Shown here: one piece after another, positions 1,440-4,344 of the stretch | Layout of the letters: every line of letters starts with the position of its first letter | Numbering within the stretch: position 1 is the stretch's first letter | Assembly (NCBI RefSeq): GCF_034259325.1 | Contig: NZ_JAXIVS010000017.1 | Coordinates: forward strand, 1-64,000 | Source of the DNA: Hyalangium ruber | GTDB lineage: Bacteria > Myxococcota > Myxococcia > Myxococcales > Myxococcaceae | DNA length: 64,000 nt | Direction of reading: 5' to 3' | Notes under the pieces: model-generated | Seen by the model: only the letters and a program-made list of their open reading frames with translations | The model's database searches: none | Told to the model about the DNA's origin: nothing | Translations under genes and position numbers: made by a program

Positions 1440-2570
1440 TCAGTCCGTGCCCGTCCGCTTCGAATCCGCGGGCAGTTGGAAGGCCGTCTCGTTGTCCGAC
1501 CAGATCGGCGGCTGCGCCTCTCCCGTGAACGCTCGCAGCCGCCGGTAGTCCGAGTACTCGGCCTGCATCGTCACCAGGTCCCCCGTCTGCATCCGCTCGT
1601 CCCCGCTCGGGTGCAGCTTCTCCGTGTCCCCCCGCCTCAACGCCAACGTCAGCGCCCCGAACCGGTCCCGCACCTCGGAGATGCTCGTGCCCGGTAGCCC
1701 CGTCCGCGCCTCGAACACCGACACCACCATCAGGTGCCGGCCAATCCGGAACGAGTGGACGATTCGCGGATCCAACGCCGCCAGCGCCATCGCCGGCGCC
1801 GCCAGCGAGGAGCTCGACAGCGCCTCCGCCTTGAACGTGTCTCGCACCTTCGCCACCAGGTCGTCGTCGAACAGGCGAATCACCACCCGGATGCTCGGGT
1901 TGAACCGCCGCGCGTCCAGCGCGATGTTCAGGTTCGCCAGGTCATCGTCCGTCGCACAGACGATCGCCGACGCCGCCTTCACGTTCGTGCGCGGCAGGCA
2001 CTGCGGGCTGCGGATGTCGTCGATCAGCAGCGGCACCTGCTCGTCTCGCAGCACCCCCACGAACGCCCCGTCCTCCCGCTTCTCCACCACCACCACGTCC
2101 TTGCCCATCGCCCGGAGCTGGTCCACCACCCGGTAGCCCACCCGCCCCGCCCCACAGACTATGACGTGCCCCTTCAGCGTCTCGGCGATCACCTCGATCC
2201 ACTCCTTGTCGCTCTTGTGCTTGGCGAAGAACAGGTAGGCAAAGCGCACCACGCCGTCCACCACCAGCGCGATGCCCACCGGCGGAATCAGCATGTTCAG
2301 CGCGATGCCCATCCAATCGTTCGAGCAGTCCAGCGAGGGCTGCCCGAACAACAGGAAGTACACGTGCTGCAGCGCCTTGCCCGCCGGCACCGGCTCTCCT
2401 CCCGGCACCTCACACCGCCATTGGAACAACGGCGGTGCCCCCAGGAAGAGCACCGCCGTCAGCATCAGCGTCGTCCGGAAGCGCCGCAGCAACGCCCAGA
2501 AGTACCGGAGGTTGATCGCCAGGCGTCGGCGCGGCGAAGGCCGTAGCGGTGACGTGTGCGTGTGCATCAT
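1440..2570 (-). CDS. RCK (TrkA-N/TrkA-C) channel-like membrane protein without a K+ selectivity filter
   Basis: 376 aa from the ATG at 2570, which overlaps the tatC stop as ATGATGA; the open frame extends 20 codons further but inside tatC. Order: TM1 about residues 34-48, a P-loop-like segment 66-85, TM2 about 88-115, a Rossmann RCK domain from about 134 with the nucleotide-binding motif HVIVCGAGRVGYRVV, and a TrkA-C-like domain near 285-365. This is the plan of MthK/Kch-type potassium channels. The TVGYG filter is absent: the segment between the helices reads LFGQPSLDCSNDW. The protein could be a two-TM RCK regulator or a channel of other selectivity. Translational coupling to tatC is likely. 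Confidence 0.75.
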   Translation of the reverse strand: MMHTHTSPLRPSPRRRLAINLRYFWALLRRFRTTLMLTAVLFLGAPPLFQWRCEVPGGEPVPAGKALQHVYFLLFGQPSLDCSNDWMGIALNMLIPPVGIALVVDGVVRFAYLFFAKHKSDKEWIEVIAETLKGHVIVCGAGRVGYRVVDQLRAMGKDVVVVEKREDGAFVGVLRDEQVPLLIDDIRSPQCLPRTNVKAASAIVCATDDDLANLNIALDARRFNPSIRVVIRLFDDDLVAKVRDTFKAEALSSSSLAAPAMALAALDPRIVHSFRIGRHLMVVSVFEARTGLPGTSISEVRDRFGALTLALRRGDTEKLHPSGDERMQTGDLVTMQAEYSDYRRLRAFTGEAQPPIWSDNETAFQLPADSKRTGTD

Positions 2571-3805
2571 GGCGTCGGGGCGATGCCCGCGGCCGCCTCC
2601 TGGCGCGCCCTCCGCCGCTCGATCAGCCACACCGCCAGCACGCCCAGCTCGTAGCAGAGCAGCATCGGCCCCGCCATCAGCGACAGGTTCACCACGTCAC
2701 CCGTCGGCGTCAGCACCGCCGCGGCGATGAGGCACACCACGAACGCATGGCGCTGGTACTTGAACAGCCACTTGCTGCGCACCACCCCCACCACCCCCAA
2801 CAGCGCCATCACCAGCGGCAGCTCGAAGATGACGCCGAAGGCGAGGATCAACAGCAGCACCAGCGAGAGCTGCTCGTTCATCGACAGCATGGGCCGCGTC
2901 CACCGCAGCGCCTCGTAGCGCGCCTTGCCCGCCGCCAGCTCCTTCTCCAGCTTCCACAGCCCGGCCAGCTCCTCGGCCCGCGTGGGCGCCACACCCGCCA
3001 GCAGGCTCGCCGCCTCGTCCATCGCCACCGCCGACACCGCGTAGTCCTTGCGGCCCACCGCCTCCACCGCCTCCACCCGCTTCTCCACCGCCTGCCGCAG
3101 CACCACCCGCGAGGACACCCCGAAGCCGTCCGCCGCCGCATCCAGCAGCTGCCCCAGCCCCGCCAGCCGCCCCGTCATCTCCACGCTCTCGGCGGGCACC
3201 ACCTCGAGCTCCCGCGCCTGCCCCTCGCCCTCCGCCCGCAGCGTTTCGCTCGCCCCCTTGGCCAGCTGCCCCGCCCGCTCCGCGTCTCCGATTCGCAGGA
3301 AGCGCAGCGCGTCCTCCGCCCGCAGCCGCCCCGTGTCCAGCCGCGACTCCAGCGCCAGCGTCTCCTCCTCGTTCAGGAGGAACTTGAACATCGAGGGCAG
3401 CACCACGAAGTAACAGAACAGCGCGCCGATCAGGAACGACAGCGTGCCCGCCGCCACGAAGGGCCCCGCCATGCGCTTCTCTTCCGGGTACAGCCCCGGC
3501 GAGACGAAGCCCCACAGCTGCATGAGGATGACGGGCGTGGTGAGGAAGATGCCGCAGTACACGCCCACCTTCATCAGCACGTTCAGCTCTTCGATGCCCG
3601 AGGTGTAGATGAGCGCCCGCCCCTCCGGCGGCAGCGCCTCCAGCACCGGCCGCATCAACAGCCCGAAGATCGGCTTGGCGAAGATGAGGGAGATCGTCCC
3701 CAGGCCGATCACCGCCAGGGTGCATTTGAGGAGGCGCGAGCGGAGCTCCGTGAGGTGCTCCGCCAGCGACATGCGCATTTCAGGATCGAATTTCGGAAGT
3801 GCCAA
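2567..3805 (-). CDS. tatC: Sec-independent (Tat) translocase TatC with a large periplasmic insertion
   Basis: 412 aa, against roughly 250 aa for most TatC proteins. It is the core receptor of the twin-arginine pathway and binds RR signal peptides on the cytoplasmic face. N-terminal MSLAEHLTELRSRL and the LWGFVSPGLYPEEKR loop are typical. The TM4 motif FGVIFELP keeps the conserved Glu (about 328). Extra sequence of about 150 residues (about 150-303, largely charged, Ala/Glu-rich and helical) sits between TM3 and TM4, in the second periplasmic loop. It follows tatA/B with a 2-bp gap and overlaps the RCK gene, so the three form an operon. Confidence 0.93.
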   Translation of the reverse strand: MALPKFDPEMRMSLAEHLTELRSRLLKCTLAVIGLGTISLIFAKPIFGLLMRPVLEALPPEGRALIYTSGIEELNVLMKVGVYCGIFLTTPVILMQLWGFVSPGLYPEEKRMAGPFVAAGTLSFLIGALFCYFVVLPSMFKFLLNEEETLALESRLDTGRLRAEDALRFLRIGDAERAGQLAKGASETLRAEGEGQARELEVVPAESVEMTGRLAGLGQLLDAAADGFGVSSRVVLRQAVEKRVEAVEAVGRKDYAVSAVAMDEAASLLAGVAPTRAEELAGLWKLEKELAAGKARYEALRWTRPMLSMNEQLSLVLLLILAFGVIFELPLVMALLGVVGVVRSKWLFKYQRHAFVVCLIAAAVLTPTGDVVNLSLMAGPMLLCYELGVLAVWLIERRRARQEAAAGIAPTP

Positions 3806-3807
3806 GG

Positions 3808-4344
3808 CTAGCCCTGCTTCGGCGCGTTACGGGCCACCGTGCCCGGAATGGGAGCAAAGCGAGGCACGGCCTCCTCCTGCTCACCCGAGGTTTCCGCCGG
3901 AGCGCTCTCCTGCGGCGCGACCGGCTCGCCCTGCGCGGCCACCGCCGCCACCGTGGCCCCCAGCGACTGCGGCTCCACGGCGGGAGCAGCCTCCACCGCG
4001 GGAAGCACCTCCGGAGGAGGCATCATGTGGGCGTAATTCCCACCTTCCAGGTGGGCTGGCACGTGCGCGGGCGGAGGAAGCGCGGCCGGCTCGGAGGCGG
4101 ACATCGCGGGGTGCTCCACCGGAGGTACCGGAGCGGGCACGGGCCGGGGTGGCTCGCGCTGGAACTCCTGGTCCATCTGGTAGAACTCGCGCGTCACCAC
4201 CGAGCGAACTTCATCCGTCTGCCGCCGGAACTCGCGCAGGAACTTGCCGATGCCGCGCGCCAGCTCGGGCAGCCGCTGCGGCCCAAGGATGAGCAGCGCG
4301 GCCACCAGGATGAAGATCATCTCGCCTGCGCCGATGTTGAACAT
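3808..4344 (-). CDS. tatA: Tat translocase subunit TatA/TatB
   Basis: 178 aa. The N-terminal membrane helix (about residues 5-21) is followed by the hinge ILGPQRLPEL and an amphipathic helix (ARGIGKFLREFRRQTDEV), the standard TatA/TatB layout. The long hydrophilic tail, rich in Pro, Ala and Glu, is closer in length to TatB than to the short TatA. Only one TatA/B gene is in the window, so it cannot be decided whether this is the pore-forming or the receptor subunit. First gene of the tat operon, directly upstream of tatC. Confidence 0.88.
   Translation of the reverse strand: MFNIGAGEMIFILVAALLILGPQRLPELARGIGKFLREFRRQTDEVRSVVTREFYQMDQEFQREPPRPVPAPVPPVEHPAMSASEPAALPPPAHVPAHLEGGNYAHMMPPPEVLPAVEAAPAVEPQSLGATVAAVAAQGEPVAPQESAPAETSGEQEEAVPRFAPIPGTVARNAPKQG

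Follow-up and report, generated by a model that had tools for sequence, protein, structure and literature searches.

The tatC gene near the start of the window (the whole analysed stretch of 64,000 nucleotides from Hyalangium ruber) encodes a protein with a large additional segment between TM3 and TM4, and the question is what this segment is, how widely it occurs and what it may do. The features concerned are as follows.

2567..3805, minus strand: tatC, 412 codons from TTG, plus the stop codon
3365..3760, minus strand: TatC core, N-terminal part (TM1-TM3), with Pfam profile positions 1-132 aligned at 3356-3760
2906..3364, minus strand: inserted periplasmic domain, TatC residues ~148-300, 153 aa, homologue of 9E0S by sequence and predicted fold
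2666..2896, minus strand: TatC core, C-terminal part (TM4-TM6), Pfam profile positions 133-208
3808..4344, minus strand: tatA/tatB-family gene, 178 aa, directly upstream of tatC, with a match to PF02416

The protein matched the TatC models of Pfam (PF00902, 205.6 bits) and NCBIfam (TIGR00945, 175.4 bits) above their cut-offs of 25.1 and 132.7 bits, respectively. The Pfam model was interrupted at profile positions 132/133 by a single in-frame insertion, all within one open frame. Two segments with a role in signal peptide binding, HL.EL..R in the N-terminal part and PGL...E in the first cytoplasmic loop, were present, and their residues were invariant in 12 insert-bearing relatives. The start of the gene was ambiguous, with a TTG at 3805 and in-frame ATG codons at 3778 and 3772; the PDB 9E03 chain of Myxococcus xanthus starts at the residue matching ATG 3772. 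The gene upstream of tatC scored 50.0 bits with the tatB model TIGR01410, under its cut-off of 56.5. A tatB-like gene, detected by sequence match, stood upstream of tatC in all 40 loci examined, with or without the insert. Downstream of tatC, a gene with TrkA-N and TrkA-C domains was found. A search of the genome of the window (G000) revealed no second TatC, and two more PF02416 matches were located on other contigs. The third TatA/B-family match of this genome, at C6:117093-117233 (29.9 bits), lay inside a 350-aa open frame and was distinct both from the TatA-like gene on C1 and from the gene adjoining tatC.

The initial annotation had described the segment as a charged, helical insertion of ~150 residues in a loop where most TatC proteins have only a short turn. 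Its size and location proved right: the inserted part comprised ~153 aa, and the Pfam model was split at this very place. Between the anchors LPSMF and LSLVL, 182 residues were counted in the window TatC, and 30-34 residues in 26 insertless TatCs of other Myxococcota (12 at 30-34 and 14 at 30-31). Charged residues made up 31% of the insert (27 D+E and 21 K+R). An AlphaFold2 model was built without templates from an alignment of 33 inserts of 141-164 aa (that of the window, 28 genus or family representatives, and four of 29 further close relatives). The model, with a mean pLDDT of 86.8, contained six long helices followed by a low-confidence four-residue C-terminal helix, in agreement with the charged and helical character described before. 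Insert residues ~26-56 and ~106-136 resembled each other as helical hairpins with a GD/KD turn (region 2864-3394, minus strand). The insert is placed in the periplasm on the basis of TatC topology and the homologous structure 9E03.

A phmmer search of the PDB aligned residues 12-411 of the window TatC collinearly with chain A of 9E03, the TatBC complex of M. xanthus (E 3.5e-199), and the insert with 9E0S, the isolated M. xanthus insert (E 1.4e-73). Searched as a profile, the insert found 9E0S at E 7.5e-71, and nothing significant in the PDB beyond 9E0S and 9E03. The predicted structure agreed: Foldseek superimposed the insert model on 9E0S with a TM-score of 0.81-0.82, the next chain being unrelated (E 0.56), and VIA-align gave Z 24.6 to 9E03 and Z 23.9 to 9E0S. 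Neither program returned another significant fold relative; the best other VIA-align row, a uranyl-binding protein (Z 11.1, 74 residues aligned), fell within the stated helical-bundle background and was rejected. The M. xanthus and window inserts share the TM3-TM4 site, the length class and the predicted fold, and are 69-72% identical in structural alignments, although a trimer has been reported only for M. xanthus. Judged by sequence and predicted fold, the insert of the window is a homologue of the M. xanthus insert. Canonical TatC structures (E. coli 9DZZ, 4B4A, and 4HTS) resemble the window TatC in the core, with two matched stretches each, but have no domain between TM3 and TM4, and the best stretch stops at window residue 145-146. 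Nitratifractor salsuginis TatC (9E02) also bears a large insert in a periplasmic loop; however, it occupies another loop, is unrelated and, according to the accessible portions of PMC13323110, is disordered. The best common stretch of 9E02 and the window TatC was confined to core residues 76-145.

The M. xanthus domain has been described by Deme et al. (2026, Nat Microbiol; PMC13323110), cited here from the accessible portions of the article. Its crystal structure is a homotrimer on a three-fold axis with a sulphate site. In the TatBC complex the insert is ordered and augments the TatC-TatC contacts, and the inserts touch each other. The periplasmic domain covers the periplasmic face of the complex and would block central egress. 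The same portions state that the core complex recognises substrates via signal peptides only, bound at the cytoplasmic face, and they place transport at the periphery rather than beneath the cap. The substrate-bound structures in the data statement are those of E. coli and N. salsuginis, with none of M. xanthus, and the TatC proteins of these two organisms, which lack this domain, assemble into the same (TatBC)3 complex. A 2026 review (PMC13186574, accessible part) argues against a central pore by pointing to the M. xanthus loops, which interact with each other and are said to prevent opening. In the accessible parts of other papers, TatC served as an inner-membrane marker (PMC6434023), and nothing on the insert was found in PMC3827258, a 2013 study of TatC diversity, or in PMC5201420. 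Our literature search found no deletion test of the cap. Thus, the observation made on the window is real but not new: the insert domain and its likely role are already published.

How far the domain extends was examined in a sample of 195 Myxococcota genomes, 179 of which had a TatC match. TatC matches spanning the insert were found in 97 of the 179, all belonging to four families of one order: f1, the family of the window (90 of 90 genomes with a TatC match), f7 (1 of 1), f8 (4 of 4), and f9 (2 of 2). The f1 count includes two genomes with the gene split over contigs (G147 and G148) and two whose matches start late (G079 and G151). No insertless TatC was seen among these 97 genomes. Each of the remaining 82 genomes gave at least two separate TatC matches among the matches listed, and the 26 of them that were read in sequence were all insertless. 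A profile built from the insert alone detected the TatC insert in 95 genomes (90 + 1 + 4) but not in the two of f9; hence, other distant copies may likewise have escaped it. Outside tatC, this profile matched proteins of G055 (contig C92, E 1.0e-4) and G041 (contig C91, E 6.3e-4), which we took as chance similarities of helical proteins; the TatC matches of both genomes were split and without insert coverage. Neither protein nor Pfam model searches revealed a TatC match in 16 of the 195 assemblies. Six of these (G080, G085, G092, G115, G120, and G133) belong to the family of the window and are 99-100% complete; G092 consists of only ~80 contigs. The missing TatC in these six may reflect an assembly gap, a masked stretch or true loss.

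Beyond this sample, the best 80 TatC loci listed in a genome collection were surveyed. Eighteen of them carried the insert, with 172-191 residues between the anchors. Seventeen bore a Myxococcia label, and the remaining one was named 'Comamonas sp. KCTC 72670' (L110, BNCN01000001.1). The latter locus has 71% G+C and shares 93% DNA identity over 4.2 kb with an f1 genome (L023); therefore, the Comamonas label is very likely wrong and the organism a myxobacterium. The other 62 loci, from eight labelled phyla and unplaced records, had 29-96 residues between the anchors. A short turn elsewhere, as initially described, thus mostly holds among these 62 listed insertless loci; more than 45 residues were counted in eight, namely seven Rhodobacterales-type (Alphaproteobacteria) TatCs with 47-64 residues (L133, L156, L164, L170, L174, L176, and L179) and a Phycisphaerae TatC with 96 (L178, 2001-2948). 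Altogether, nine Rhodobacterales-type TatCs (41-64 residues) and the Phycisphaerae one have extra residues at the same loop, shorter than the insert. Compared by eye, seven of the eight longer ones showed no resemblance to it. Among TatC records on plasmids, 39 of the 40 listed (of 127 found) aligned in one piece to an insertless TatC. The insert profile had no match in 31 genomes of insertless named loci (31 of the 62 loci; 9 labelled Myxococcota, 20 from other phyla, and 2 unplaced), a set with no known positive. Among the loci, plasmids and genomes listed, no insert was confirmed outside Myxococcota, and within this scope the segment is not common to TatC proteins of unrelated phyla.

In a tree of the TatC core with the insert columns removed (59 rows, 33 with the insert and 26 without), one change explained insert presence. 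The insert-bearing rows formed one group, with f9 branching first and a support of 92/83, which is below the starred level of the tree program; the rows flagged for long branches were insertless without exception. Comparison of the inserts themselves gave E 5.6e-32 over 152 columns for f1 plus two f8 inserts against the f7/f8 profile, a value helped by the two f8 rows present in both alignments. The two f9 inserts matched the f1 or f7/f8 profile modestly (probability 75-77%, E ~2e-5). A genus in the family of the window, g23 (G143, G144, and G145; loci L060-L062), has kept a shortened and strongly diverged insert. Its genomes measure 2.1-2.7 Mb, compared with 3.9-13.8 Mb in the rest of the family. 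With 19-22% insert identity, the g23 insert gave a profile comparison of E 3.8e-6 over 52 columns only, and its model is predicted to match 9E0S at a TM-score of 0.71-0.76, although the alignment behind this model held the other inserts, which may bias the predicted fold. Homology of these f9 and g23 sequences is further proposed from their identical placement, and the predicted fold counts as well in the case of g23. From the core tree we infer that a single gain of the insert probably took place in the ancestor shared by the four families of the order and that the insert was then kept.

The insert has changed faster than the rest of the protein. Its dN exceeded the core dN by a factor of 1.4-2.6 in 11 comparisons against the window TatC and of 3.0-4.5 in three others. 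The NG86 dN/dS over 14 pairs was 0.28-1.13 for the insert and 0.14-0.40 for the core; these values are rough, with strong codon bias. Identity to L044 was 58% in the insert and 82% in the core, and to L046, 39% and 69%, respectively. The faster change suits a structural add-on, and it may also reflect a variable binding site.

The source of the domain was sought by a Pfam scan of the 33 inserts, repeated on nine diverged ones, which returned weak, scattered matches only. PF02255 (PTS lactose-type IIA) matched three of the 33 inserts at E up to 1, with a best value of 0.00052, and the insert of the window was not among them. PTS lactose-type IIA is a trimeric helical protein. An internal duplication, helices 1-3 against helices 4-6, was considered and rejected (hhalign score 14.2, reached or exceeded by 4 of 200 column shuffles; probability 1.7%).

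Taken with the published structure, the sequence and model comparisons make it quite probable that the window encodes a single TatC with an insert of the lineage's own, which was gained once and kept and which forms a homotrimeric cap stabilising the (TatBC)3 core. By homology with M. xanthus, three inserts would come together above the complex and, as a cap, link its three TatC subunits on the outer side of the membrane. As such an immobile cap, the insert would mainly serve to keep the (TatBC)3 core assembled, while transport would proceed at the periphery with TatA, and this role would be what selection keeps. Since (TatBC)3 forms without the domain in E. coli and N. salsuginis, stabilisation by the insert is not strictly needed.

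The insert could instead be a neutral ornament of this lineage: a helical domain that came once into a loop tolerant of additions and is now retained only because the assembly has come to include its trimer. The loop does tolerate additions, as the 47-96 residues in 8 of the 62 listed insertless TatCs indicate; N. salsuginis carries its unrelated, disordered insert in a different loop (PMC13323110, accessible portions), and dN/dS exceeded 0.8 in 3 of the 14 pairs. However, not one of the 97 genomes has an insertless TatC, and the length of 141-164 aa, together with the predicted fold of the modelled g23 insert, is kept down to 19-22% insert identity, which makes a neutral ornament rather doubtful.

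Another explanation makes the insert a platform on which a periplasmic partner would dock, such as a chaperone, an envelope protein, peptidoglycan or signal peptidase, the trimer being only a scaffold. Its occurrence in all 97 genomes of the four families with a TatC match, its retention in the diverged small-genome group g23, its charge, and a length of ~150 residues, in excess of what joining TM3 to TM4 needs, all fit such a platform. Still, we regard it as unlikely: the insert diverges faster than the core, just seven alignment columns are invariant in 25 inserts, though the surface may carry a conserved patch, and the accessible portions of the literature found by searching name no partner. 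A more specific form of this idea, with the cap arising once in an ancestor of the order and docking a myxobacterial periplasmic factor, for post-export handling of Tat substrates or for tying the translocon to the envelope, appears quite unlikely. If docking did take place, the insert would have a lineage-specific partner and not a stabilising role alone.

Capture of emerging substrates, proposed in the initial annotation as substrate binding, is highly improbable: nothing direct speaks for it beyond the position of the insert on the trans side, and against it stand, in the accessible portions of PMC13323110, the mutual contacts of the M. xanthus inserts, recognition via signal peptides only at the cytoplasmic face, and peripheral transport, from which, as the substrate-bound structures do not include M. 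xanthus, the absence of substrate contact is extrapolated to the window TatC.

The stabilising cap is therefore the reading under which we place the present data. The domain and its solved structure have been in print since 2026, and what is added here is its range and history: probably one gain within one order of Myxococcota, with the insert spanned in every sampled TatC-positive genome of four families. The insertless sister families are natural controls.
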